Assembly: GCA_027493955.1 (NCBI GenBank)
Contig: JAOSJT010000001.1
Coordinates: 3,707,131 to 3,771,130 of the forward strand
Length of the DNA: 64,000 nt
Origin: Bacteroidia bacterium
GTDB taxonomy: Bacteria; Bacteroidota; Ignavibacteria; SZUA-365
Reading direction: 5' to 3'
The position numbers and the translations under genes were made by a program. The notes below the pieces were generated by a model, which saw only the letters and a program-made list of their open reading frames with translations, searched no databases and had not been told where the DNA came from. Positions within the stretch are counted from its first letter, which is position 1, and every line of letters begins with the position of its first letter. Shown piece by piece: positions 5,924-64,000 of the stretch.

Positions 5924-6820
5924 TTACTCCGAAATCACGAGTTTTGCCGTGTGGCGAACCTCCCGGCCGTTCAACGTGAGAAGGTAGACGCCGGGTGGCA
6001 GTCCGTCGGGCCTCCAGCGAAACTGGTTCGATCCTGCGGTTGCTTCAAGCGTGCGACACATGACGACGGATCCGAGAGTGTTTACAATGGAAATCACCAC
6101 AGTCCCCGGATTCTTCATCACGAAGGGCACCGTTGTTGCTTCACGGAATGGATTCGGGTAGACGGGGAGGAGTACATCGGCATCCGACGGATTCGGCAGC
6201 CGCTCGACATCGACAAGCAATGCGCCGTAGGTGGTTCCCGTCAGCACACAGCCGACGAGCGTGATGTCGTCCTGGCGGGTGCCGGGCGGTTCGCCTCCGA
6301 AGTGGCTGGTGAGCGGACCAAAGCGTTCGGACAGCGTGATCCAGTCGAGCATGAGTCCGTCGCGGCGGAAGGTCAGGGTGCGCGTGGGCAGCTGAAACAC
6401 TTCCGTCGAATCGATGTTCTGCAGCTCAATGGTCCGCTGCCAACCATGCGTTAACGGCCAGGACTCGTCCTGCACCGCATCGAAGCGGAAATACACTTCT
6501 TCTGTGCTGTCTTCCTCGAAATACACGTACATCCGCGTCGAGTCCACACGGATGAAGCGATCACTGCAGAAAGGGAAGGAACTACCGTGTTTCCCGCGCT
6601 GCTCCAGCTCGTAGTAGTCTTTCCCGTTTGCCTGTCTGCCGAAATCGACGATGCGTAGCATGATCGTGTCCCGCGACCCCTCATGTGTTACCCAGTCGAA
6701 ATACGAAGCGGTGTAATCCCAGCGGTTGCCGACCTCGAGCGGAACGTACGGTTGGGCGGGGGCGACATGCACAACGGTCAGCAGGCAGACACAAAAGATT
6801 GATGTCAGAGCGGAGCGCAT
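5924..6820 (-). CDS. Secreted protein with T9SS type-A sorting domain
   Basis: The Met chosen (6820) has AGGA 6-7 nt before it and starts a signal peptide (MRSALTSIFCVCLLTV, then APAQ); upstream in-frame Mets would add about 100 non-natural residues. The mature part opens with YVPLEVGNRWDY, a phrase common in FCB secreted beta-sandwich proteins. It ends with a sorting domain: VYPNPFREATTVPF, then LPPGVYLLTLNG and a basic end (KLVISE). The type IX system should export and attach or release it. The catalytic or binding role of the central 170 residues is unknown. Confidence 0.82.
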   Translation of the reverse strand: MRSALTSIFCVCLLTVVHVAPAQPYVPLEVGNRWDYTASYFDWVTHEGSRDTIMLRIVDFGRQANGKDYYELEQRGKHGSSFPFCSDRFIRVDSTRMYVYFEEDSTEEVYFRFDAVQDESWPLTHGWQRTIELQNIDSTEVFQLPTRTLTFRRDGLMLDWITLSERFGPLTSHFGGEPPGTRQDDITLVGCVLTGTTYGALLVDVERLPNPSDADVLLPVYPNPFREATTVPFVMKNPGTVVISIVNTLGSVVMCRTLEATAGSNQFRWRPDGLPPGVYLLTLNGREVRHTAKLVISE

Positions 6821-7120
6821 TGTGTTCCTCGGATTGAGAATCAAGACAGAAAGGTATCGAATGCGTAACCGCAAGTCAATCGGATGACACACGAGCGGAC
6901 GAATCGTTCCTTTTGCACAGAAACATACGCTCGAAATTACGTGCAACAATGCAACCCTCACCGCTGGCAGATAAATGGGTGGAACGTCGAAGGAACCTGG
7001 AAACAAGGTTCTTTCTCGGAATATCGAGTCTGAAATTTGAATCATCAAACAAAGGTTTTGTATCACAATGGTCCGCGAGCTACTTTCCCACATCGTTGTA
7101 TTGTTTTGTTGGACAGGACC
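6821..7120. other. Divergent intergenic region
   Basis: It holds the promoters of the 6820 (minus) and 7121 (plus) genes. No clear -35/-10 pair, repeat or RNA structure was found. Confidence 0.35.
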
Positions 7121-7528
7121 ATGAAGCACCTCGTCGTCGGCACATTAATTTTTGGCTTTGTGCTTGTAGGGATGACAGACATGCTACTGTCGCAGGGGTA
7201 CAACAGTGGCTCCGATTCGGCACGTCCGTCTGACGGCTACCTCGACAGCCTGTGCGCAAAATATACCAGCTCGCGACTCGATTCCACCGCAGGATCATTG
7301 CTCATGAGAGAATGGCTGGATGGGTTGGCCTCTGAACACCTGGTTTCCAACCGCGACGACTTGACCGAGAATATGAAATGGAACCCCGAACTGCGCTTGT
7401 TCCGCCGACCGCACCACCACCATTTTCCCTCAGCGAGAAAATGGCGTCCATCACGAAGGAACATGTTGGACGTACATGTGTCCTTGACTATTAAGACGGA
7501 GGGAAGCAGATTGTCCGGGTGCTTGTAG
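7121..7528 (+). CDS. Small secreted protein, probably a truncated relative of the 10998 gene
   Basis: The ATG follows GGACAGGA at good spacing and begins a signal peptide (MKHLVVGTLIFGFVL.., cleaved near LLSQ). The following YLDSL....Y....LDS....MREWLD matches, at the same spacing, YLDSL....Y....IDS....MRMLLD in the secreted protein at 10998-11837. It is only 135 residues against 279 there. Another frame just downstream (about 7500-7608) is also protein-like (ILVDVNDEASILEHCRRFC), so the 3' part may be frame-shifted. The function is unknown. Confidence 0.55.
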   Translation: MKHLVVGTLIFGFVLVGMTDMLLSQGYNSGSDSARPSDGYLDSLCAKYTSSRLDSTAGSLLMREWLDGLASEHLVSNRDDLTENMKWNPELRLFRRPHHHHFPSARKWRPSRRNMLDVHVSLTIKTEGSRLSGCL

Positions 7529-9038: not shown

Positions 9039-9080
9039 TCACCTGCCGTTGCATCACGAATCTGGAGAAAGGAAATGAGG

Positions 9081-10505
9081 ATGAGAGCTGGAATCGCAGG
9101 CATCGCCATCGGCCTGCTACTCGGAAACGTCCAGACGATGCACGGACAGGGATTCGAGTGGAAACAAGGGTATCCATCCTATGGGTATGGAGTGAATGGC
9201 TATGGCGTTCGAGTATCGCCCGGCGGGATGATATACACGTATTTGCAGTATTGGGACATTCCTCCCTTCCAATGGGATACAGGATCCGTTATCGAAAAAT
9301 ATGATGACGCAGGGCATCGTATCTGGTACCTGTCCTGGAGAGGCAACGGGAGAGAGGTGAAGATCGAGTATCGATGTGACAACGATGAAAACCTCTATGT
9401 GCTGCAGGGAAACAAACTGAGTAAACGCTCCCCGGAGTCTGGCACGTGCTGGGAGACCAGTTTGGCGAACGGCTACGACAAGTTCGAAGTTTCGAGAGAT
9501 CGAATCTTTCTTTTTACACCGCTTGTCGATACAGGCGGGACGGGAATATATCGTGGAGTCTCCATTGTGCAGATCGACACCATGCGCAGGGAGGTATGGA
9601 GAAGGGATACGATGTTTGCTCAGGACGTAGCCATCACGCGAACAGTAACGTACGTGGACAAGAGGGGGAACATGTACGTTTCAGGGGCCATCGAAGCAGA
9701 TGAGAAGGACGTATTCTTCCTCAAGTTTGACATAGATGGGAATCTTATTTGCAGCAAACGGGAACGCGGCCCGGTGGGGCGAAACGAGGAAGGATTTGCG
9801 ATTACCGCTGATGCTGCAGGAAATTTCTACCTTCTTTCGAAGGTGGATAGCAGTGACAACATCAATTCGGCCTGGATTACCAAATATGACCCAGTGGGTC
9901 GAAAGATTTGGTCGAAGTTTTATGAGAAGGAGTGGAACCTCGGAGTTGCGTCCATTCAGACCACACCAGATGACGAGATTCTTGTTGGAGGAGGATTCGG
10001 ACAAGGACCCAACGGCATAGCACATTTCGTGTTTCGTGTCGATACATCCGGTGCGCTGCAATGGCAGCTCCCGACAGAGCCGCGATTCAAGTTTGGGAGC
10101 ATGGCGGTAGGTCCCGACAACGACGTATACTTCATTGGGCTCTGGTTTGCCGGGTTGCATAGCGCTGATGGGCCATATTTCGCGAAGTACAGCCTCCATC
10201 CGGTCTCAGCCGAGATCCTGCCGGACGGGGTGGCCGATCCCGCATCTTGTGTGTTGAAGCAAAACTATCCCAATCCCTTCAACCCTTCGACGACCATCGA
10301 TTTCAACATCCCAAGTCGCGGCGACGTGCGATTAACCGTCTTTGATCACCTGGGACGAGAAGTTGCGGTACTCGCAGATGGCGAATATGAGTCTGGGACA
10401 CACTCCTGTCAGTTCAGCAGCGCGGAGCTACCGTCTGGTGTGTATATGTATCGCCTCCTTTGGAATGGCAATAGCGTAGCTCGAAGAATGGTCCTGCTGC
10501 GATAG
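9081..10505 (+). CDS. Secreted beta-propeller-like protein with T9SS sorting domain
   Basis: The Met at 9081 has AAGGA at about 7 nt (an ATG six bases earlier is too close). The signal peptide ends near MHGQ. The body has SBBP/propeller-like repeats of the form KYDxxGxxIWxxxF (residues about 70-350). The C-terminus is a textbook T9SS type-A domain: LKQNYPNPFNPSTTIDF, then LPSGVYMYRLLWNG and MVLLR. It should be exported to the cell surface or medium, probably with a binding rather than catalytic role. Confidence 0.85.
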   Translation: MRAGIAGIAIGLLLGNVQTMHGQGFEWKQGYPSYGYGVNGYGVRVSPGGMIYTYLQYWDIPPFQWDTGSVIEKYDDAGHRIWYLSWRGNGREVKIEYRCDNDENLYVLQGNKLSKRSPESGTCWETSLANGYDKFEVSRDRIFLFTPLVDTGGTGIYRGVSIVQIDTMRREVWRRDTMFAQDVAITRTVTYVDKRGNMYVSGAIEADEKDVFFLKFDIDGNLICSKRERGPVGRNEEGFAITADAAGNFYLLSKVDSSDNINSAWITKYDPVGRKIWSKFYEKEWNLGVASIQTTPDDEILVGGGFGQGPNGIAHFVFRVDTSGALQWQLPTEPRFKFGSMAVGPDNDVYFIGLWFAGLHSADGPYFAKYSLHPVSAEILPDGVADPASCVLKQNYPNPFNPSTTIDFNIPSRGDVRLTVFDHLGREVAVLADGEYESGTHSCQFSSAELPSGVYMYRLLWNGNSVARRMVLLR

Positions 10506-23838: not shown

Positions 23839-25644
23839 ATGAGACGCTTCTCCCTGTTTTTCGCAGTCGCGCTGTTTTGCGCGTCCATCCCCTCCATTGC
23901 GCAAAGCGTTACCGAGACCACCGTGCCGATGTCCGATGCGGTGACGCTGGACGCATTCGTCTGCAGACCGGAGTCCCCCGCTCCGTCCGGCGGTTACCCC
24001 GCTGTGCTCTTCGTCCACGGTTTCGGCGGATCGAAAAACGACGTACGCTCGCTGGCGATGAACTATGCCGCCGACGGCTATGTGACCGTCGGGTACAGCG
24101 TGCGGGGACAAGGGCGCTCGGGCGGTGTGTTTGATTTTTTCAATTCGGAGAGACTGCTCGGCGACCTCCGCGCCATGATCGACTACACGGCCACGCAGTC
24201 GCAGGTCAATGCGTCCCGCGTCGCCGTGGTGGGTGGGTCGCAGGGCGGACTGCACGCCTGGTTCGCGGCGGCATACGACATGCCGGTACGCACGGTCGTG
24301 TCCATTATCGCCAACGGTCGCTTCGCCGACAACTGGTTGGAGAACAATGCGCTGAATTTCATGTTTTCCTACGCGGGACAGGCATCAGGCATCAACATGG
24401 ATCCGACGCTCAAGGATCTGCTGAATCGGGCGAGGACTTCGGGAAAATATGACGATGTGCGCTCCTTCCTGACGCAGTACTCCACGGCCGCGCTCGAAAC
24501 AGAAGTGAAAATTCCTGTAGCCATCATGGTGGCGGGACACGACATCTTTTTCAATCAAAATGCGGCCATTCGGCAATTCTCAAATCTGACCGAACCCTCG
24601 CGTTTCATCCTCTATCCGGGTGATCATGATTTGCCCGCGGAGAAGGGACAGAACAATTACGTCATGGATGTGACCAGACGCTGGTTGGCCTGGTGGCTCA
24701 AGGACGATGCCGCGGTTGCGAGCGTGGCCTCTCCCGACAGCGCCGTCGTACATTTTGACGGAGCGACGGGAGAGAGGCGCGTTTTCCGTCTGGCGGATGA
24801 GGGTTTATGGCTGGCGCCGGATGTGTCGCGGCCGGAGGTTGAGGAATTGCGACTGTACTTCAGCAACCGCGGACTGATGACGGACAAACCGGTCAATCAG
24901 GGGTATAGCAGTCTCAACTACGTACCCTTCATGGGATCGCAGCTCGCGGTATTCCGCAGCGAACCCAAAACGCGCGACGTAACCATCGCGCCCTTCAGCG
25001 GTCTCGTGACGATGTACGCCTCCGCCACGGGTGTGTCGTATCAGGTGAATGTGCAGCTCTTCGATCTCGATCCGGCGGGTGAGCGACAAGCGATCGGTCG
25101 CGGCCACATGCAGGTGGACGGCAATACCGGCGGGACGCAGTTGCTGCAATTCGAGCTGACACGCATGCTGCACACACTTCGGGCAGGACATGTTCTTGAA
25201 GCGCAGGTGCACGGCGGCATAGCCCTGATACCTGACCTGTCGATGAATTTCGGCAATATCGTCGTGGCTCCCACAGTGGCGTCGGACATCACGCTCTGGT
25301 GGGGAGGCGACGTAGCTTCCATGCTGCGCCTGTATACGATCGAGGCGGCGCCCGTATCGGTCGGAGCGGATGCTCCGGTCACCGGCTTCGCGCTTTCCGC
25401 GAATTATCCCAATCCCTTCAGCGCGACCACCTACCTTCCCGTGCAGCTTTCTTCCGCGCAACATGTTCGTGTTCGGGTGTACTCCGCGGCCGGCCGCGAG
25501 GTCGCTGTGCTGCACGACGGAATAATGGAGCCGGGTCGCCACGTACTGCGCTTCGACGCGGGCACTCTGCCCTCGGGGATGTATTTCTGCCGACTGGAAA
25601 GTGCTTCGGGGGTGCAGTCGCGGCAGATCATGTTGCTGCGCTGA
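23839..25644 (+). CDS. S15/CocE-like alpha/beta hydrolase with T9SS sorting domain
   Basis: It has 601 residues with a signal peptide ending SIAQ (about 22). The hydrolase domain (35-330) has VLFVHGFGGSKND (oxyanion region), SVRGQGRSGG, the nucleophile elbow VVGGSQGG, an Asp in MVAGHDIFFNQ and a His in PGDHDLPAEKG. This resembles X-Pro dipeptidyl-peptidase (S15)/CocE esterases, and residues 340-500 form the jelly-roll C-domain usual for that family. The end is a T9SS type-A domain (NYPNPFSATTYLP, LPSGMYFCRLES, IMLLR). It should act outside the cell on peptides or acyl esters. Confidence 0.9.
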   Translation: MRRFSLFFAVALFCASIPSIAQSVTETTVPMSDAVTLDAFVCRPESPAPSGGYPAVLFVHGFGGSKNDVRSLAMNYAADGYVTVGYSVRGQGRSGGVFDFFNSERLLGDLRAMIDYTATQSQVNASRVAVVGGSQGGLHAWFAAAYDMPVRTVVSIIANGRFADNWLENNALNFMFSYAGQASGINMDPTLKDLLNRARTSGKYDDVRSFLTQYSTAALETEVKIPVAIMVAGHDIFFNQNAAIRQFSNLTEPSRFILYPGDHDLPAEKGQNNYVMDVTRRWLAWWLKDDAAVASVASPDSAVVHFDGATGERRVFRLADEGLWLAPDVSRPEVEELRLYFSNRGLMTDKPVNQGYSSLNYVPFMGSQLAVFRSEPKTRDVTIAPFSGLVTMYASATGVSYQVNVQLFDLDPAGERQAIGRGHMQVDGNTGGTQLLQFELTRMLHTLRAGHVLEAQVHGGIALIPDLSMNFGNIVVAPTVASDITLWWGGDVASMLRLYTIEAAPVSVGADAPVTGFALSANYPNPFSATTYLPVQLSSAQHVRVRVYSAAGREVAVLHDGIMEPGRHVLRFDAGTLPSGMYFCRLESASGVQSRQIMLLR

Positions 25645-38021: not shown

Positions 38022-39281
38022 ATGAACCGTCACATACTTCTTTCCTCGCTCCTTCTCTTTTCCTTTTTTTCCCTGGCGCAGTTTTCCATGCAAGCGCAGG
38101 AGAGCTGGCCGGGCACATCCACGAACATGGGTGTAGGCTGGATCGGATACCTCTATGCCAATACAACTCCTGTGCAGGATCCGACGAATGATATTGGCAA
38201 GAATGTTGAGAAATGGGATCTGACGTTCGTCGAACCCGGCGCACGGTACACTGTACAAGCTGCCGCAAGCAGCTCGACAGCGTTCTTTCGTCTGCAGGTG
38301 ACTTCTCTGACGGCGCTGGATGGCCCCGGTACGTACTACGTTTTCATAGCGAATGCATCGAATACGCAAATTGGGATGGTCTATCTGACCATAGCGGGAA
38401 ATAACACCTGGGATCTCATTGTCAGGAATTCTTCCAGTGTAGAGGCCATCGTGGCTTCGAATGTAGCCGGCTATACCCGGGTCGTTCAAACCGGATATGC
38501 CGGCACGGCGTTCGTCGATTTTCAGGTGCCGCTGACGACTTTGTACAACACGCTCGGCATCAACGCTAACACGGTGATCAAATTCTATTCCGGTACATCT
38601 TCGGGGACAGGGAATATCGGAAATGTCAATCTCGATTTTATGACTCCCGGAAACACCATCGATTTTTCCACTCTCGCAACGGTCACCGTGTCTGCGCTGA
38701 ATATCGGACTTCTCCCGGTGGAGCTCAGCAGCTTCACGGCACATACCAAGAGTGGGACGACGCTTCTCAAATGGAACACGACCACCGAAGTGAATAACTA
38801 TGGCTTCGAAGTGCAGCGGTCGTTCAGAAAGGACGAGTGGGAAGCGATCGCCTTCGTCCATGGCCACGGTACCACCAACAGCCCGCGCAGCTATTCGTAC
38901 GAGGACAGACTCCCGTCTCACGCCGCAGCGGAAATTCGCTATCGCCTTCGGCAGATCGATCGTGACGGAAGCGAAGAGTATTCACCTGTCGTTATGGTAC
39001 GCGGCATAGCACAGACGACCTTCGGCATAGCGGATGCCTTCCCCAATCCGTTCAATCCCTCCACCACCCTCTCGTTGAATCTGGATGTCGAGAGCCCCGT
39101 CACAGTGAAACTGCATGACGTCACAGGCCGCGAAGTAATGACACTCCTTGAGAACACGATCCTCTCGGAGGGGTCGCATTCCGTGCTTATTCAAGCCCCT
39201 TCGCTCCCGAGTGGTCGATATCTCGCGGTGATGACCGCGGGATCGCAACACAGCATTTACCCGATTGTTTTATCGAAATAA
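38022..39281 (+). CDS. Secreted protein with T9SS type-A sorting domain
   Basis: It has 419 residues with AAGGAAA 7 nt before the ATG and a signal peptide ending MQAQ. Residues 28-230 are a beta-sandwich of unknown function rich in Ser, Thr and Asn (SSSTAFFRLQVTSLTALDG). Residues 235-330 are the VELSSFTAHTKSGTTLLKWNT domain also seen in the 36063 protein and in many FCB surface proteins. The end is AFPNPFNPSTTLSL ... LPSGRYLAVMTAG. A sigma-54-like promoter and a strong terminator bracket it as a single-gene unit. Confidence 0.88.
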   Translation: MNRHILLSSLLLFSFFSLAQFSMQAQESWPGTSTNMGVGWIGYLYANTTPVQDPTNDIGKNVEKWDLTFVEPGARYTVQAAASSSTAFFRLQVTSLTALDGPGTYYVFIANASNTQIGMVYLTIAGNNTWDLIVRNSSSVEAIVASNVAGYTRVVQTGYAGTAFVDFQVPLTTLYNTLGINANTVIKFYSGTSSGTGNIGNVNLDFMTPGNTIDFSTLATVTVSALNIGLLPVELSSFTAHTKSGTTLLKWNTTTEVNNYGFEVQRSFRKDEWEAIAFVHGHGTTNSPRSYSYEDRLPSHAAAEIRYRLRQIDRDGSEEYSPVVMVRGIAQTTFGIADAFPNPFNPSTTLSLNLDVESPVTVKLHDVTGREVMTLLENTILSEGSHSVLIQAPSLPSGRYLAVMTAGSQHSIYPIVLSK

Positions 39282-46669: not shown

Positions 46670-47662
46670 TCAGGTTCCGACAACGATGCGGCCGCTGCTT
46701 ATGCGCCCGTTATGCTGCAACACCCACGGATAGATACCGGAAGCTAAGCGGTTTGTGCGTACCTCCAACGTGACCCCGCCGTTGGAAACCATGCCGCGAT
46801 GCACATCACGGATACGGCGTCCGAGTACATCGTAGATGGAGAAAATGATCGCACCAGGGGAATCGAGATCAATCCTAATCGTTACATGATCACGTGCCGG
46901 CTGTGGGTACATTTGCACCGATGGTCGGGGTCGGGAATTGCGTGACAACACCGCTGTCGTGCTTCCGAGCATTTCCGGAATGCGTGCCTCGGCTGCACGC
47001 TGCGCCAGTACCGCGTGACCCGCGTCGTTCAAATGAATTCCATCACCGAAATCAGCCCAGGGCGCGATGCTTCCATCACTGGTCGCCAGTCCGGTCCAGA
47101 AATCGAGACCGCGCTCCGCAAACCTGCCTTGGAGCCAGTCGCGCATGGTGATGAGATTCTGCCGCTGGGCCTGTGTCAGATTTCTCGGCTGCGTCGTGCT
47201 TACCCACATTCGGACACCAGCCGACGACGCCTCGGCGTCAATGCGTTCAAAATTTTCTATTTGCTCCAGCGTGCTCATGTCCCAGGCGGCATCGTTCGAA
47301 GGCAGGGTCAGAATGATGGCATCGGGAAGAAGGGACAAAGCTTTGGTGATGTTCCGTGCCGAGTCGGGAGCGGGCCTTCCTTCGGGAGGGATGAAGCCGC
47401 TGGACTGCAGATGAAAAGATGTGTATCCTCCTCGCGCCAAATTGATAACCTCGTAAGCGGGATTTTGCCGGCGCAGCACTTCAGCATAACGCCGGACCCA
47501 CGCGCTGTCAGGCGTGGATGCACCGACACCCTCGGCCGTGCTCGAACCAAGCACGACGATGCGCAGGCGGTCCGGTACTTGTTGCGCGCGGAGCGACGTC
47601 TGGAAGAGAAGAAGAACGAGGAAGCAAATGGCTAGCGCAAAGCGCCCGCGAACCGATGTCAT
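46670..47662 (-). CDS. SGNH/GDSL hydrolase with T9SS-type C-terminal domain
   Basis: It has 330 residues with a signal peptide ending LRAQ. SGNH block I is VVLGSSTAEGVG (Ser41 in place of the GDS serine), block II is GGYTS, block III is LPSNDA (Asn), and block V is GDGIHLNDAGH (Asp...His, about 212). The domain is therefore a complete esterase or lipase fold. Residues 250-330 form a T9SS sorting domain (QMYPQPARDHVTIRI, LASGIYPWVLQHNG, IVV). The N-terminal 4 bp overlap the end of the TlpA-like gene, so the two form an operon. The substrate (acyl or acetyl sugar, lipid) is unknown. Confidence 0.88.
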   Translation of the reverse strand: MTSVRGRFALAICFLVLLLFQTSLRAQQVPDRLRIVVLGSSTAEGVGASTPDSAWVRRYAEVLRRQNPAYEVINLARGGYTSFHLQSSGFIPPEGRPAPDSARNITKALSLLPDAIILTLPSNDAAWDMSTLEQIENFERIDAEASSAGVRMWVSTTQPRNLTQAQRQNLITMRDWLQGRFAERGLDFWTGLATSDGSIAPWADFGDGIHLNDAGHAVLAQRAAEARIPEMLGSTTAVLSRNSRPRPSVQMYPQPARDHVTIRIDLDSPGAIIFSIYDVLGRRIRDVHRGMVSNGGVTLEVRTNRLASGIYPWVLQHNGRISSGRIVVGT

Positions 47663-54592: not shown

Positions 54593-54776
54593 GCGTGTAC
54601 GTCTGGGAGGTCGGTTGTTCTTTGATCGGAATGAGAATCACATACTCCACTGTAACATCGCGGAGGAAAGAAAAAGTTCTGCCAGCCGGTGCATTTTTCC
54701 GGAAAATTAATTAAGATTCATGTATCCACTGAATCTGCACGCTCTGCGACACGTGCATCCCTGTAAGGAAGCCATC

Positions 54777-56693
54777 ATGAAACCACTCGCGCAACTGTTG
54801 ATTCCCGTGATATCCGCACTTGTTTTTCTTGCCACCTCGGTATATGCCCAACGCGATCTCTCGACAGACCGGTCTGTCCTGTTCAGCGGCGCCGGAAACT
54901 GCACCCTGTGTCATGGCCCGGGGAGCAATGCCAACGTCACTGCCGCTGGAAAGGATGTATCACCACCGAATCTCTGGCGCTCAACGATGATGGCAAACGC
55001 CGCACGCGATCCTTTCTGGCAGGCGGTGGTTGAACGGGAGTCGGCAAAGTACCCTCAACTGGCCGGAATTATCGAGGATCGCTGTACCAATTGTCATGCT
55101 CCTATGGGGCATGAACAGGCGCGGCAGGATGGAGATGCGGAGTTCCGGTTGGGCGAAGCCGAAGGCAGTTCCCTCGCAATGGATGGCGTGAGTTGTACCC
55201 TCTGTCATCAGATCGAAGGACAGAATTTCGGCAACACCTCAAGTTTTTCGGGCGGGTACGAAATAGCCACGAGCCGAGTGACCTATGGTCCGTACAACAA
55301 TCCTCTCATTCAACCGATGAGAAATGTCAGCGGTTATACTCCGGTGTACTCGACTCATATCGAAGAATCGGGATTGTGCGCAACATGCCATACGCTGTTC
55401 ACACCCTATATTGACGATCAGGGAAACATCGCTGGAGAGTTTCCAGAACAGGTTCCGTTTCTCGAGTGGAAGGAGAGCGTCTACCCCGCGCATGGGAGAA
55501 GCTGCCAGAGCTGCCATATGCCCGCCATTGACGAAGCTATACGGATCTCCAGTCTTCCGTCGACATCACCTCCGCGCTCACCGTACTTCCAACATCATTT
55601 CGTGGGTGGAAATACGTTGCTGCAAACCATCCTTAAAACGCATGGCGAAGAGCTTGGGGTTACCGCGCTGGACGAGCACTTCGATTCGACGTATGCGAGA
55701 ACAAGAAGGCAGCTGATCGAGGATGTTGTGTCTCTCGACGGAGGAGCATGGCTGCTGCAGGATACTCTTCAAGTGCTGTGTCGCGTAGAAAATCGGACCG
55801 GGCACAAATTCCCAACGGGCTTCCCGAGCCGACGCGCATGGCTGCACCTCACGGTACGGGACAATAGCGGTCGTGTCCTTTTTGAATCCGGTGCGGTGGA
55901 TGCGGACAGCGAAATTGTCGGTCTTGATACGCCGTATGAGCCGCATCACTCAGTCATCACCGATCAGGGACAGGTGCAGGTGTACGAATCGGTGATGGGC
56001 GATGTCAATGCGGCCGTCACCACGGATCTTCTGCGAGCCTCACAGTATGTGAAGGACAACCGTATTCCGCCGAAAGGTTTCAGTGTAAAGGCAATGGAAA
56101 ACGACACCATTGGTGTTTTTGGCGCAGCGAGGTCAGACCCGGATTTTGGCCGTCAAGGTGCGCTTGAAGGTACCGCTGCGGATGAGACGCACTATCGAAT
56201 CCAGGTCGATCCTGCCGGTTATCCCTTTCGCGTCAGTGCCGAAGTGGTGTATCAAAGCATCAAACCGGAATTCGTTCGTGGACTCGGTGAAGGTGATCAA
56301 CCTAAAGGCACAAGAATGCTGCGCTACTGGCAGGAGACGGCCAGCAGGCAGATCATCATCGCGCAGCAAGAGTGGAGCAGCACAATCGTCGGCGTGGATG
56401 ATCTTTCCGTAGCGACAGCTGTGGACGTAGGAACGCCCTGGCCGATGCCGCTGCTCGCCGGTCAATCGGGTCTCCTGCATATACCTCTCGTTGTCCATCG
56501 TCCCGCGCATGCAACCCTTGAGCTGATGGACGTTCTTGGCCGTCGCGCGCGGATCATGGATCTTGGAATACTTACCTCAGGCACGTCCATGTTGACGCTT
56601 CCGATGTCGCCGATGCCGAGGGGAATGTATTTGTTGCGACTTCGTGTTGATAATACGGATGTTCTGCTTCGCTTACTCTGTTCGGATAGGTGA
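54777..56693 (+). CDS. Pentaheme c-type cytochrome with T9SS-like C-terminus
   Basis: It has 638 residues with AAGGA before the ATG and a signal peptide ending VYAQ (about 25). Five CxxCH heme sites: CTLCH 42-46, CTNCH 103-107, CTLCH 140-144, CATCH 201-205 and CQSCH 243-247. Residues 300-560 are a long beta-rich part (CRVENRTGHKFPTGFPSRRAW, usual in surface multiheme cytochromes). The end (HATLELMDVLGRRARI, MPRGMYLLRLRVDN, LLCSDR) is a degenerate T9SS sorting domain. It should carry electrons outside or at the outer membrane. It is not one of the standard named cytochrome families. Confidence 0.88.
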   Translation: MKPLAQLLIPVISALVFLATSVYAQRDLSTDRSVLFSGAGNCTLCHGPGSNANVTAAGKDVSPPNLWRSTMMANAARDPFWQAVVERESAKYPQLAGIIEDRCTNCHAPMGHEQARQDGDAEFRLGEAEGSSLAMDGVSCTLCHQIEGQNFGNTSSFSGGYEIATSRVTYGPYNNPLIQPMRNVSGYTPVYSTHIEESGLCATCHTLFTPYIDDQGNIAGEFPEQVPFLEWKESVYPAHGRSCQSCHMPAIDEAIRISSLPSTSPPRSPYFQHHFVGGNTLLQTILKTHGEELGVTALDEHFDSTYARTRRQLIEDVVSLDGGAWLLQDTLQVLCRVENRTGHKFPTGFPSRRAWLHLTVRDNSGRVLFESGAVDADSEIVGLDTPYEPHHSVITDQGQVQVYESVMGDVNAAVTTDLLRASQYVKDNRIPPKGFSVKAMENDTIGVFGAARSDPDFGRQGALEGTAADETHYRIQVDPAGYPFRVSAEVVYQSIKPEFVRGLGEGDQPKGTRMLRYWQETASRQIIIAQQEWSSTIVGVDDLSVATAVDVGTPWPMPLLAGQSGLLHIPLVVHRPAHATLELMDVLGRRARIMDLGILTSGTSMLTLPMSPMPRGMYLLRLRVDNTDVLLRLLCSDR

Positions 56694-56761
56694 CGAATAA
56701 CTGGCTTGACATAATGGAACATCACAAATATTTTTCAGCATACCATTGGAGCAATTCGGCC

Positions 56762-57445
56762 ATGAACTTCGCGTGGAAAATATTCATCCCTTTTGTGCTT
56801 CTCCTGATCGCCACACCAATCCGTGCGCAGGATGGAGGACGAATCATTTTCACCGATCCGAAGAGTTCAGATGAGAAAGTGCTCTCCGAGGAGGATCTTC
56901 AGCCGCGGACGCATGCCTGGGGCGCGGATCTCATGATCGGGACGGACGGCTTTGGTCTCGGATTCTTTTACTCCCATGCGCTTTCCAACGTAACCACGGC
57001 GTTTGCCAATCTGAGTTTTTCCGAAGCGAAAGACGACAGACAGCGGGACTTTGTCGACCCCTGGTATGGCCAGTATTCGCTGAACAAGACAAACTATGTG
57101 TTCCGCGTACCCTTGTTTCTCGGACTGCAATATCGTTTATTTGCCGAGACCATCACCGATAACTTCCGACCATTTCTCAACGCGGGGGCTGGACCGGTCA
57201 TGCTCTATATCACGCCGGCGAAGGGTGATTTCCTCTCAAGCCTCGGCGGTGGTCATACGCGCTACACGTACGGAGGTTTTCTCGGAGTCGGAGCCAATTT
57301 CGGTTTTGACCGCAGCAGTGTTTTCGGAGTGAATGTTCGCTATTTCCTGATCCCGATACCAGAAGGTATTCGAAGTGTCGAGCAGGGGACCATGTCCAAC
57401 GCCAACGGATTTTACATCACTCTCAATTTCGGATCAGCGTTCTAA
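56762..57445 (+). CDS. Outer-membrane beta-barrel protein
   Basis: It has 227 residues. The Met at 56762 gives a signal peptide (MNFAWKIFIPFVLLLIATPIRAQ); upstream Mets add 24 polar residues. The mature chain has about eight amphipathic strands (DLMIGTDGFGLGFFYSHAL, NYVFRVPLFLGLQYRLF) and ends in a strand with terminal Phe (YITLNFGSAF), as barrels recognised by the BAM complex do. It lies 68 nt after the pentaheme cytochrome, so an outer-membrane partner role is possible. No family name can be given. Confidence 0.8.
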   Translation: MNFAWKIFIPFVLLLIATPIRAQDGGRIIFTDPKSSDEKVLSEEDLQPRTHAWGADLMIGTDGFGLGFFYSHALSNVTTAFANLSFSEAKDDRQRDFVDPWYGQYSLNKTNYVFRVPLFLGLQYRLFAETITDNFRPFLNAGAGPVMLYITPAKGDFLSSLGGGHTRYTYGGFLGVGANFGFDRSSVFGVNVRYFLIPIPEGIRSVEQGTMSNANGFYITLNFGSAF

Positions 57446-59325: not shown

Positions 59326-62300
59326 TTACAATTGCATAACAATCCTCAGCTCGGCCTCGGGTTGATACCAACCATCCACGCCGAGCATGCGGTACGTGTT
59401 GAATCCACGTTGGCTGTCCCAATGCGTGTTGTAACGAAAGCGGATGAACAGAACCGGATGCGGATACATATCCAGATGGATGTTGGTCCGCAGCGTCCGT
59501 CTGCTGTTGCTGCTCGGGGGCGCAAGGTAGAAGGTCTGCCGACGCTCCTCAATCAGGTAATCCGTATCGAGTCGCAACTCCGCGCGACGAACGATCGGCG
59601 CATCGTCGAATGTGAAGGTTGTGGTAGCTGAGGGACGAAGTGTGTACCCTTCCCATACGCCATAACTGTTTTCGCTTCTGCTCGTGGTCGTGTTGAAGGC
59701 GACCCGCGCGAGCAGAAGGCGGGAAAATCTTCTCTCGACCCAAATAGCCGGCTGCGTTTCAGTGTTCGTACCGCTGTAGAGCCGTTTCATCAGCTGAAAC
59801 TGAAACGCGTATTGTGTACGATTGTCCGGGCGCCATTCGGCGTAGTGTATCATGTTCCAGTTACCGCTGTTGGCCGTGGAGTTGTAGAGCTTGCTTGTGG
59901 ATTCCCTGTACATACCGGCGACGGAATAAAGTAATCCCGATATCGGACGCCATTCCAAACGAGATTCATACCCGGTGACCGTGCTTCCGCTTCGAGGTTC
60001 GCCCGTGTTTCCGGAGAAGAGGGAGAGCAGAAAACCTCGTTGGTCTGCAGCATTCGCGGCGTATCCGGTCACGGCATAATTCACGGTTGCAAAGAAAACC
60101 ACGGGCCGGAGCGCCGGCACCCAGGTGCCTGGTGCGACACGGACATTCGTCAGCAGGGATGTTACGGAGGAACGGTCGAACAACATCGGGGAGGCCTGCA
60201 TGCTTCTCAGCTCCCGCGTGAGTCGGCCTCCGAGAATCAGTCCATCCATGTTCTCCATGAGGATGTCGAGATTCGCTCTTTCTATCTGGTATTCGCGGGT
60301 AAACAGGCCCGCGCGTACTTTCTTTTCGCGTAAATCTCCCTGATACCAGAAATTGAGGGAGAAAAGCGGCCGCGGATTGAGCACCGTACGGAGGAAGTAG
60401 TTCTGTGACCGGTAGAGTCCGTTTCGCAAAGATCCCATTGTTTCCTCACCGGTAATCCTGGCATATGCGGAAATACGGGCGGCGGAGAAACCCGTAAGAG
60501 CGAGCAACCCGGCGGAGGGTGTCCATACTGCGTCGACCCGTCCTCCACGACGCGAGCGTTTTTCCGACCAAGCGGTCACATCGAGTAATTCGCTGCGCAG
60601 CGTAAGCGAGGGATAATCCTGGCGTGACCATTGCACGCCACCGGAAAACGTCTCCTCGCTGCTTTCCGTCCCTAAAAGGGAGTCTTGGCCTGCACGTCCG
60701 TGATACCGCGCGAAGGCGCGCAGCTCAGGAGTAATATCGTACTCCGCGCTGACGAGATGGTCTGCATGCAGAGGTCCGGCAGAGTATTGGGCGGGAACGG
60801 CTTCACTATACCCGTTTGAGCGCAGCGATGAGAGTATGGAAACTCTCGCAGCTTCCGTGCTGAGGGAAGCGGATAAACCGGCCGCTGCTCCGCTGGACAA
60901 ATCGCTCACGGTATGTCTGTACTCGGGGCGGACTCGAAGATCGAGACGTTGCGTTTGCCACCGGACCTCGCCGGCGGCCTGCGCAAAGTGAACAGACGAT
61001 GTGCGTCCTTGTGGGGTGAAGCTGCCTCCACCGAGGGATAATTGCGCAAGATCCGATGGCGAGTACGTGAGATTGGCTTGTGTAAAGCGCTCTTCCGCGA
61101 TGTTTCGCACATACTCATACGTAATCTCGACGCGGCTATCGTCAAATACCGCCCCGTCGCGAGTAAAAAGAAGGTGACCGGAGCTGTAATCAAGAACGTA
61201 GTCTTCGCCAGGACGGACGGGAATGCCATCCACCGTGATGCGCTCCGAGCCTCGTATCACGCGCCGTTTGCTGAGTGCGTAGCTGCCGGAGTTATGTGTC
61301 TCGTATCGCACTTCCATCATATAGGTCGCAACCGGAGGGCGTTGGTAGGCAGTCTGCGGAAACGGAAGGGCTTCGGGGAAGCGCAGCAATCCTTTTGCAA
61401 AATCCACGAATTCCGCGTCGACGCGTCTGTCGCCGTCGTTGTCGAGACCGAATTGCGAAAGAGGCACTTCGGTATCTCCGGGCCCGAGAATACGCAAGCG
61501 CAGCGTTGCCGGTATAATGTCGCTCCCTATGCTGTAATGGTTGCGGATTTCAAGATACTGTGTGGTGGAATCTCGCAAAAGCAATTCTTCCGTTACACCG
61601 TTTCTGTGTATCCGGACGGCGACGACCTCATCACTTACCCATCGAAGATGGATAATGCCGCTGGAGAGATCTATGGTATACTGATCTCCTTCGTTGTGCC
61701 GACGCCAGTCGCCGCTTACGCCGGCAATGGAGGTGGACAGCAGATCGTCGCGGCTGCGACGCACAGTGGAAGCTGACAGAAGGCTAAAGACTTCGACCGT
61801 CGCATCGCCAAGCTTCCCCACCTGACGGTCGGCACGAAGATGGTACAGCGATCTTTCCAGCCAGTCGGCATCCGTCAAGGACAATTGCCTACCCCGGTTT
61901 AGACCATCAAATACATCGGTGTGCGTGGATGTGGTTTTGTGTCCGCTCTGCGCCTGAACTTCGAGCATGCTGCGGCCGTATTTTTCCGTGCGGTCGCCGA
62001 GCACCGCTCGACCTCCCACACCGAATATTCCGAAATCCTGCTGCAATCGGCTCCCGCTTCCCTGTACGCGCATGTCGCCCCATTGCAGAGACTGTACCAT
62101 ATCGTCGCGAGCGCCGCGATACTCAGCGCCGTACACTACCGTTTCGAAATCCGCATCGTTGTACACGGCGCTGATACGCCTGCCCCCTCCGAGGTCGAGT
62201 CGCGCTTTCAGATCATTGCGATAGAAAAACTTGCCGCTTTCGTAATCCCTCTGACCCAGGGGATCACGAGAGAGCCATGAACTGCGACTGCCGCTGAGAT

Positions 62301-63465
62301 CCAGACGGACACCCTCTCCGAAGTCGATATAGCTACCCTTTCCGGGATCGAGTGAAAAAGCGGCCGTACCTCCTTCGTCGTCCCCATGCAGGGGAAGCTC
62401 GTACCATCTGTCCTCATACTCCAGAAAATAGACCAGCGACGTTTCGGTAAATGTCGCGACACCGATGTCGAGAGGGAACAGAACACGGACATCGATATCC
62501 GGCATGCCCCCTGCCGAGGTATAGTAGGTCCAAGTACCGCTGCCGCGATCAAAACGCGACAGACCGCTTGCGGTGCTGAACCAGAGTTTGCTCCCATCCG
62601 CGGTGAGCGCCACGGCCTTGAGTTCCTTGTCGGGTAGTTGCGACAATTCTGGGAAGGCCCGCAATCCGTCCGTGGAGGGATCGTACAAGAAGAGATCTCC
62701 GGAGGTCAGCAACCAGAAAGCGCTTCCCTGAATGATGATTTCTCTGACGTCTCCGCCTCCGAAGGTGTGGAGGGCATAGGGAGAAAACACCCGCGCGATC
62801 ATGTCAAAACGCAGGAGATCCGTGTCGCGCAGCAACCACAACTGTCCTCCCGCAATAAAGGCATCGTGAATGCGACTCTCGCCCGGAGGTAGAAAGTGTC
62901 GCCAACGTTCATAACGCGGATCGTACTCACTGATTCCCGTATCGGTGGCGAGGTACACACGGTCTTCATTCAGGGTGATGGCATGCACAATGCTGCCCGC
63001 AAGCGCTTTCTCCGCGCCTATCGTCTGCCATTCTTCGATCAGCCTGTCGTAGCGCGCTGCGCCATGTTGTCCTCCAGCCCAGACATAATCCGTCTCGAAG
63101 ACGACGGCTCTCGTCGCACCGATGTTCAGTCCACGACCGCTGTCGTAGTGCAGCATGGTGTTGCTCCGCTGATCAAAGGCGGTGAGTCCGGCGCTTTGAC
63201 CAACCCACAGCACGTCGCCGGAGAGATCGAGCGAAGTGATGCGTGAGGACAAGAGCCCGTTTTGTCTGCCGTATGCGGACCACACGTTATCTTCGCTACG
63301 ATAGCGATGTAATCCGTTGGGCGTTCCGATCCACACCGAACCGCTGGTTGAGAGCAGAGACCAGGAGCGGTCGGGATACTGCACCCTGACCTGTGCCGGC
63401 GCATCACATACGGCAAAGGACAGACAGATGAGGAACGCGGCAATACAGCTGCGCGGTATACTCAA
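59326..63465 (-). CDS. Giant propeller/SprA-like/beta-barrel outer-membrane protein
   Basis: It has 1379 residues from a TTG start five bases after the DUF362 stop, which gives a signal peptide (MSIPRSCIAAFLICLSFAVCDAPAQ); the open frame further upstream overlaps the DUF362 gene. Residues 30-390 contain 7-9 two-component-propeller repeats (GSVWIGTPNGLHRY, VWAGGQHGAARYD, RVYLATDTGISEYD, LWFSTASGLSRFD). A linker of beta-strands follows. Residues about 725-790 (VIRGSERITVDGIPVRPGEDY, LDYSSGHLLFT) are the repeat typical of SprA-like T9SS translocon proteins. Residues 800-1379 look like a large outer-membrane barrel ending LRIVMQL. The combination is unusual; the role is unknown. Confidence 0.85.
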   Translation of the reverse strand: MSIPRSCIAAFLICLSFAVCDAPAQVRVQYPDRSWSLLSTSGSVWIGTPNGLHRYRSEDNVWSAYGRQNGLLSSRITSLDLSGDVLWVGQSAGLTAFDQRSNTMLHYDSGRGLNIGATRAVVFETDYVWAGGQHGAARYDRLIEEWQTIGAEKALAGSIVHAITLNEDRVYLATDTGISEYDPRYERWRHFLPPGESRIHDAFIAGGQLWLLRDTDLLRFDMIARVFSPYALHTFGGGDVREIIIQGSAFWLLTSGDLFLYDPSTDGLRAFPELSQLPDKELKAVALTADGSKLWFSTASGLSRFDRGSGTWTYYTSAGGMPDIDVRVLFPLDIGVATFTETSLVYFLEYEDRWYELPLHGDDEGGTAAFSLDPGKGSYIDFGEGVRLDLSGSRSSWLSRDPLGQRDYESGKFFYRNDLKARLDLGGGRRISAVYNDADFETVVYGAEYRGARDDMVQSLQWGDMRVQGSGSRLQQDFGIFGVGGRAVLGDRTEKYGRSMLEVQAQSGHKTTSTHTDVFDGLNRGRQLSLTDADWLERSLYHLRADRQVGKLGDATVEVFSLLSASTVRRSRDDLLSTSIAGVSGDWRRHNEGDQYTIDLSSGIIHLRWVSDEVVAVRIHRNGVTEELLLRDSTTQYLEIRNHYSIGSDIIPATLRLRILGPGDTEVPLSQFGLDNDGDRRVDAEFVDFAKGLLRFPEALPFPQTAYQRPPVATYMMEVRYETHNSGSYALSKRRVIRGSERITVDGIPVRPGEDYVLDYSSGHLLFTRDGAVFDDSRVEITYEYVRNIAEERFTQANLTYSPSDLAQLSLGGGSFTPQGRTSSVHFAQAAGEVRWQTQRLDLRVRPEYRHTVSDLSSGAAAGLSASLSTEAARVSILSSLRSNGYSEAVPAQYSAGPLHADHLVSAEYDITPELRAFARYHGRAGQDSLLGTESSEETFSGGVQWSRQDYPSLTLRSELLDVTAWSEKRSRRGGRVDAVWTPSAGLLALTGFSAARISAYARITGEETMGSLRNGLYRSQNYFLRTVLNPRPLFSLNFWYQGDLREKKVRAGLFTREYQIERANLDILMENMDGLILGGRLTRELRSMQASPMLFDRSSVTSLLTNVRVAPGTWVPALRPVVFFATVNYAVTGYAANAADQRGFLLSLFSGNTGEPRSGSTVTGYESRLEWRPISGLLYSVAGMYRESTSKLYNSTANSGNWNMIHYAEWRPDNRTQYAFQFQLMKRLYSGTNTETQPAIWVERRFSRLLLARVAFNTTTSRSENSYGVWEGYTLRPSATTTFTFDDAPIVRRAELRLDTDYLIEERRQTFYLAPPSSNSRRTLRTNIHLDMYPHPVLFIRFRYNTHWDSQRGFNTYRMLGVDGWYQPEAELRIVMQL

Positions 63466-63470
63466 ACGAT

Positions 63471-64000
63471 TTACCCAAGCGAGGTTCGTACGATTTGTTC
63501 CATCGGCACCTGCAGAGTGCCCACACCACGTTCGGCGGCGAGTGCGATATGCCGCACATCGGCCGGGGTTAGCGTGCGGCCATTCCATTGAGTCAGTCCA
63601 AGGGTTGCGGCATCAACAGCCACAGGGTCGCTGCCGGCGAGTATGGTATTGAGCGTTTTCACAGTTCCGGGGCCTTGCGGACCGTTATCCAGCATGCAGT
63701 GTACGGCATCCATAATGGTCAGCTGCGGTCGGATGACGCCGGCGAGGTCGGCGACGGCGCTGCTGAGATTGTAGTCGCCGTGAAATACGCGGCGGTCATG
63801 AATCAGGCCCATCAGATTCTTCATACCGAAACTCACCGTAGTACCACCGTGTGCTTTCGCTGTTGGCAAATTGATGAGCACGTCAGCCTTGCGCGCGAGC
63901 TTTGCGACGGCGACTTCCTTGAACTCGATGGCTTTCGGTGTCGGTACGGATTCGAATTGCTGTTCCTCGCCAAGTTCGACAAAGGTCAGCTCGGGCATGG
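63471..64000 (-). CDS. DUF362 family protein, partial
   Basis: The 5' part lies beyond the right edge; at least 175 C-terminal residues are present. DUF362 marks are KADVLINLPTAKAHGGTTVSFGMKNLMGLI (the conserved KxH...KNxxG core) and AGSDPVAVDAATLGL. Members are sometimes fused to 4Fe-4S domains and are of unknown function; no cysteine cluster is visible in this part. It is in the same direction and 5 bp before the giant outer-membrane gene, so they form an operon. Confidence 0.9.
   Translation of the reverse strand, partial: MPELTFVELGEEQQFESVPTPKAIEFKEVAVAKLARKADVLINLPTAKAHGGTTVSFGMKNLMGLIHDRRVFHGDYNLSSAVADLAGVIRPQLTIMDAVHCMLDNGPQGPGTVKTLNTILAGSDPVAVDAATLGLTQWNGRTLTPADVRHIALAAERGVGTLQVPMEQIVRTSLG

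Follow-up and report, generated by a model that had tools for sequence, protein, structure and literature searches.

By sequence and structural model, 54777..56693 on the plus strand of the window (the whole analysed stretch of 64,000 nucleotides) encodes a c-type cytochrome with five hemes that belongs to the widespread PHC family (ExtKL / Gsu2801 / c552), and a T9SS tail at the C-terminus of this protein is supported by a profile built from its own genome, by the predicted fold and by the above-cut-off tails of its homologs. Since the cytochrome carries a T9SS tag, it probably ends up outside the cell, and we regard its export to the surface as quite likely. The combined reading, in which a PHC cytochrome is exported by its T9SS tail and exchanges electrons with an extracellular partner that is left open, is held with somewhat more confidence than doubt. 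Extracellular electron transfer is plausible, and for transfer to solids or partners as its actual use the arguments are about evenly balanced. The parts themselves are ordinary, and it is their combination, recurring across several phyla, that is unusual.

The open reading frame spans positions 54720-56693 (+), the best start being the ATG at 54777 with an AAGGA site just ahead, and the resulting five-heme cytochrome with a C-terminal sorting domain has 638 aa. The following features are all on the plus strand. A Sec-type signal peptide without a lipobox (residues 1-24, MKPLAQ...VYA; 54777..54848), read from the sequence, is followed by the PHC domain (residues 32-535; 54870..56381), delimited by the fold match to 5ze8 and composed of a helical five-heme part and then a beta-rich part with the stretch GHKFPTG (residues 342-348; 55800..55820). 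The CxxCH motifs, located by motif scan and alignment, are CTLCH (residues 42-46; 54900..54914), CTNCH (103-107; 55083..55097), CTLCH (140-144; 55194..55208), CATCH (201-205; 55377..55391) and CQSCH (243-247; 55503..55517). The AlphaFold model (mean pLDDT 91.4, pTM 0.82) includes a separate beta-sandwich at residues 566-635, behind a poorly ordered linker in which residues 541-546 and 560-563 have pLDDT below 50. The T9SS type-A-like C-terminal domain was placed at residues 566-638 (56472..56690) by the own-genome tail profile, the AlphaFold model and the fold search. Downstream, after a spacer of 68 nt (56694-56761), the ATG at 56762 starts a small outer-membrane beta-barrel of 227 aa (56762..57445). 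The earlier note had described five CxxCH within the first 250 residues, a beta-rich part after them with a T9SS-like end, and a barrel 68 nt 3' of the cytochrome; the motifs at 42, 103, 140, 201 and 243 and the measured spacer agree with this, as do sequence and model for the beta-rich part and the end, which is divergent.

In 20,000 shuffles of the cytochrome protein the CxxCH count never exceeded one, and within the window this was the only ORF of at least 100 aa with two or more such motifs. The cysteine and histidine columns of all five motifs were invariant among the aligned relatives (60/60). The fold search with the model placed residues 32-535 on Thermochromatium tepidum c552 (5ze8) with Z 25.8 and rmsd 2.9 over 352 aligned residues at 21% identity, and the profile of the 60 relatives matched, among PDB sequences, 5ze8 (E 4e-9) and the multiheme selenoprotein MccSep (9wt8, E 2.7e-4). 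Searched alone, the heme core gave 5ze8 (Z 13.7), followed by NrfA (Z 6.6-9.4; 8bcx 9.4, the others about 7) and the extracellular cytochrome OcwA (Z 6.9). Where its PDB sequence matches included MauG and reaction-centre cytochromes, these were attributed to the likeness of the CxxCH motifs, and membership in MtrC/MtrF through PF22113 (31.3 bits, cut-off 30) was rejected, as other PHCs and other multihemes match the same model.

The ExtKL equivalog model NF040886 gave 29.6 bits against a curated cut-off of 250, so that the protein was assigned to the PHC family and not to ExtKL. Outside the motifs, H273 and H343 were invariant among the 60 aligned sequences and H390 and H194 were present in 98 and 87%, respectively, the model itself being without hemes. 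Also M72 and M181 were invariant among the aligned relatives, as was K344 beside H343 (60/60). The selenocysteine position of MccSep corresponds to F349 and is occupied by Y, F, I, H or V in 60/60 aligned sequences, so the MccSep chemistry is not kept. The PHC family was defined with ExtKL, Gsu2801 and cable-bacteria proteins and linked to c552 in PMC11976967, which counts PHCs among the potentially catalytic cytochromes with a pentacoordinated heme and, via the work of another group, ties them to the AvECN nanowire by a common heme arrangement and a beta hairpin.

For the tail, the curated profile TIGR04183 gave 16.3 bits (E 0.0069), under its cut-off of 23, and the Pfam sorting-tail domains had no match in the protein at E<=1; by the curated rule, no T9SS tail is therefore called. 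The profile built from 24 further tails encoded in this genome, with the tail of the nonaheme cytochrome (see below) excluded, scored the window tail at about 40 bits (39-40.3), the best shuffled tail among 6565 reported reaching 7.7 bits. With the same profile, five other ORFs of the window scored 63-119 bits, one 18.8 and the rest at most 3.1. The five ORFs with T9SS-type tails scoring 63-119 bits are located at 9075-10505, 23839-25644 and 38022-39281 (+) and at 5924-7129 and 46670-47662 (-). In the fold search, residues 544-638 aligned with the PorU CTD (residues 1054-1158 of 6za2; Z 8.1, rmsd 2.8, 87 aligned), a match with which other Ig-like folds tie. The tail of the family profile matched the solved T9SS CTD 8glk (E 0.0083) and, more weakly, RemZ 8gl8, gingipain 7pq4, 5ag9 and 5hfs (E 0.19-0.42), while phmmer with the window tail alone found no T9SS CTD among PDB sequences. 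Six of the ten relatives scanned with NCBIfam exceeded the TIGR04183 cut-off with a tail at the same position (L080 33.7, L078 34.3, L082 37.4, L135 42.4, L118 43.3 and L099 24.0 bits), and no TIGR04183 match was listed for L139, L097, L144 and L122. For the sorting-domain profile, whose lack in a periplasmic protein would refute the earlier note, the answer is divided: the curated version missed the tail, whereas the own-genome profile and the T9SS-tail fold argue for it.

The genome of the window consists of one contig of 5.24 Mb and contains at least 150 sorting-tail matches, all above cut-off, SprA (1050 bits) and three heme-copper oxidases. Two CxxCH-spacing scans together with a PHC paralog yielded 13 other multiheme ORFs, a non-exhaustive set (L240 gave no clean ORF). 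Of the 14 multiheme ORFs examined, three have a T9SS tail by the own-genome profile: the window cytochrome (40.3 bits), an octaheme (88.4) and a nonaheme (95.7); the other 11 scored at most -0.3 bits or were unreported. The octaheme (C1:3255209-3256804; L192:4210-5805) was above cut-off also with curated models (TIGR04183 23.5 bits; PF18962 29.6, cut-off 27), as was the nonaheme with its nine CxxCH (C1:2641100-2643112; L238:3101-5110; TIGR04183 49.6-53.9 bits). Relatives of the octaheme occur in the class at 39-50% identity, and the nonaheme tail is the top-scoring T9SS tail of the genome. Within the window, an ORF of 1420 aa at 59326-63588 (-) weakly matches the PorZ propeller (PF21544, E 0.019) and, over a short stretch, SprA (31.9 bits, cut-off 200). 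The suggestion of the earlier note that a multiheme cytochrome reaches the surface by T9SS thus gains support from the own-genome profile, the PorU-like predicted fold, the tails of homologs, the presence of SprA and the two further tailed multihemes.

The relatives were studied as the best 80 of at least 579 found in a scan of named genomes; 41 loci were assigned to T9SS-type lineages (Bacteroidota, Ignavibacteria, KSB1, Marinimicrobia, Calditrichota, FCB) and 38 to other lineages, one (L099) being left unassigned. Within these best 80, a C-terminal extension was present in 36/36 complete relatives from T9SS-type lineages versus 1/36 complete others; the sequence after the conserved DNR motif has 194-273 residues in all of the former and 101-122 in 35/36 of the latter, the sole extended exception (L144) having an Ig-like extension. 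Likewise among the complete proteins of the best 80, the tail profile reached at least 8 bits in 31/36 from T9SS-type lineages (five being lower) versus 0/36 others. In two of these five, the Bacteroidota relatives L093 and L097, a different C-terminal domain of about 170-200 aa takes the place where the T9SS tail would be. SprA was above cut-off in 33/35 genomes of T9SS-type lineages (the misses being G081 and G087) versus 0/36 of the others. In a tree built from the cytochrome part (60 rows, 514 columns), two changes are required for the tail, of which the starred branches force only one. Since tail and SprA are distributed along the tree by one or two changes, the counts lack independence; the two are strongly associated, but the association comes close to a single event.

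Ahead of heme 1, a lipobox-like motif was present in 18/37 tail-less relatives, at least two of them doubtful, versus 4/41 from T9SS-type lineages, none convincing. In one genome of the window's family (G003, L043:7027-10542), the tailed pentaheme is preceded, at a distance of about 10 bases, by a tail-less one of 532 aa; this pair may consist of one periplasmic and one surface copy. Another genome (G036, L054:6246-10229) has an ORF of 1327 aa whose residues 739-1282 are PHC-like and which contains six CxxCH and no T9SS tail. A homolog is present in Lewinella cohaerens, which is aerobic. The search of viral contigs found no relatives of the cytochrome.

Among the 37 listed loci of T9SS-type lineages, many of which have short flanks, 16 (L115-L119, L122, L124, L126, L128, L129, L135, L139, L142, L146, L152, L153) have an FG-GAP/ASPIC-UnbV protein next to the cytochrome, in 11 cases directly downstream on the same strand. 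Most of these proteins appear to end in a T9SS-like tail themselves. Counting that of L090 (Sumerlaeota) there are 17 such neighbours; Pfam was checked for five, and Por_Secre_tail was present in four, the fifth, from L090, being without a tail. The adjacency of two genes for T9SS cargo is in keeping with a surface role of the cytochrome. In the genome of the window, both ASPIC proteins lie away from the cytochrome locus, and such a protein is therefore no partner there.

The barrel was considered as the other half of a two-gene outer-membrane electron conduit, an explanation that we now find very improbable. The two genes are on the same strand and 68 nt apart, and they were adjacent in 7/7 cytochrome-bearing genomes of the window's family (G000, G002, G003, G005, G006, G007, partial, and G011). 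Of the 12 genomes of this family (f1), seven had both genes, two the barrel only (G001, G004), three neither (G008-G010, fragmented assemblies) and none the cytochrome only, a degree of co-occurrence for which linkage alone can account. Against a partnership, the barrel family was present in 54/61 genomes of the class, mostly with other neighbours; in G001 the barrel follows an esterase and the cytochrome is absent, and outside the family (G015, G017, G019, G035) different genes flank the cytochrome while the barrel lies on separate contigs. Being class-wide and beside the cytochrome in one family only, it is a common outer-membrane protein of the class and not a large dedicated porin encoded with the cytochrome. 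With about 205 mature residues the barrel is also small for a heme-filled porin, and an export tail would be needless for a cytochrome plugged into a conduit. As to the co-conservation proposed as a check, the two genes showed some co-occurrence within the family and were unlinked in the cytochrome-bearing genomes outside it, and the barrel was dropped as an unsupported partner. Also the idea that the T9SS serves instead of a porin-cytochrome conduit became doubtful, as the same genome has a porin-cytochrome-like cluster (C1:1195633-1198836; L190:5637-8837, -) of a 427-aa barrel, an 11-heme protein of 383 aa and a 5-heme protein of 275 aa with a lipobox-like LLFAACSS; the T9SS cytochromes would thus stand beside, not replace, a possible conduit. 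A tail-less pentaheme paralog (L194:4008-6737, -; ExtKL model 49.1 bits) adjoins a barrel that itself has a single CxxCH close to the N-terminus, and relatives of this pentaheme occur in many genomes of the class.

Two further explanations concern the protein itself. That the tail is a mere Ig-like accessory domain and the cytochrome stays periplasmic would fit the failure of the curated profiles, the many Ig-like folds that tie with PorU, and the periplasmic place described for Geobacter ExtKL (PMC6148476). We judge it improbable in view of the 40 bits with the own-genome profile, the canonical tails at the same position in homologs, the joint occurrence of extension and SprA across relatives, and the above-cut-off tails of two other multihemes of the genome. 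A more serious possibility, still the less probable one, keeps the T9SS export and makes the protein a surface redox enzyme, one open-site heme acting on nitrite, peroxide, selenite or a sulfur compound with no electron path to solids. The nearness of the heme core to NrfA nitrite reductases in fold (Z up to 9.4) and to MccSep/ExtKL suits such an enzyme, and as only H273 and H343 are invariant among the non-motif histidines, not every heme need be bis-His. The Lewinella cohaerens homolog and the three heme-copper oxidases of the genome point in the same direction, and the placement of PHCs among potential catalytic cytochromes (PMC11976967) is as compatible with an enzyme as with a wire. However, the MccSep chemistry is not kept, the neighbours suggest no substrate, and the same genome has other surface-type multihemes and a conduit-like cluster.

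For the preferred reading, a surface PHC cytochrome exchanging electrons outside the cell, sequence and model contain a signal peptide, five heme sites, the PHC fold, a linker and a T9SS-type tail, and the genome contains SprA. The protein would be exported by Sec and receive its hemes in the periplasm, after which the folded holo-protein would be taken by its tail through SprA and be kept on, or released from, the outer surface. There it could pass electrons between the cell and a mineral, humic matter, another surface cytochrome or a small oxidant, or alternatively act at the surface as a reductase or as an enzyme of peroxidase-like kind. One candidate source of its electrons is the conduit-like cluster, and the adjacent barrel would not be needed for T9SS export. 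Geobacter ExtKL, periplasmic, is linked to selenite reduction and growth on Fe(III) in PMC5877670, so that the family leans to redox work in the envelope without thereby pointing to one substrate. As the tail-less PHC relatives of other phyla are periplasmic, like Geobacter ExtKL, or often have a lipobox-like sequence, it would be the FCB-type bacteria that coupled this redox module to T9SS export.

The usual explanations for cytochromes at the surface are porin complexes, lipoprotein export or T2SS. The occurrence of tagged relatives in bacteria with T9SS suggests another, little-noticed means by which redox proteins get to the cell surface, and no report of a T9SS-tailed multiheme cytochrome was found among the open-licence PMC papers listed, as judged by titles and abstract openings. 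If true, the T9SS route would explain outside multihemes in Bacteroidota, Ignavibacteria, KSB1, Marinimicrobia and Calditrichota, it would imply T9SS transport of proteins to which several hemes are covalently bound, and CxxCH plus a sorting tail would become a sequence rule for predicting T9SS-exported multihemes. The widest version, with T9SS as the general surface route for folded multihemes in FCB-type bacteria and the PHC module forming AvECN-like surface filaments, is hardly to be expected.

Compared with the known PHC family (cable-bacteria sPHC/lPHC, Geobacter ExtKL and Gsu2801, c552 5ze8, MccSep 9wt8), the window protein is alike in its five CxxCH and in the helical heme part followed by a beta-rich part with a GH.xP.G stretch, the 5ze8 fold extending over 352 residues, but differs in its T9SS tail and in having no selenocysteine at the MccSep position. 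ExtKL differs from it also in being periplasmic and adjoining the porin ExtI, as described in PMC6148476 and PMC5877670. With T9SS type-A cargo (TIGR04183 / PF18962) the protein shares an N-terminal Sec signal, a terminal beta-sandwich after a linker, the D.LG and G.Y positions and SprA in the genome, whereas its first tail motif is degenerate (PWPMPL, not YPNPF), its score is below the curated cut-off and the cargo is a multiheme cytochrome. The archaeal cytochrome nanowire AvECN, absent among the fold matches listed for the whole model and for the heme core, has four hemes, as against the five heme sites of the window protein, and forms filaments. Cytochromes of the OmcA/MtrC, OmcB and OcwA type reach the surface as lipoproteins of porin complexes, by T2SS or in a Gram-positive wall. 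The window protein resembles them in being multiheme and probably at the cell surface, with a core arrangement weakly similar to that of OcwA, but differs from both the porin-cytochrome type and OcwA in its predicted route, a T9SS tail.
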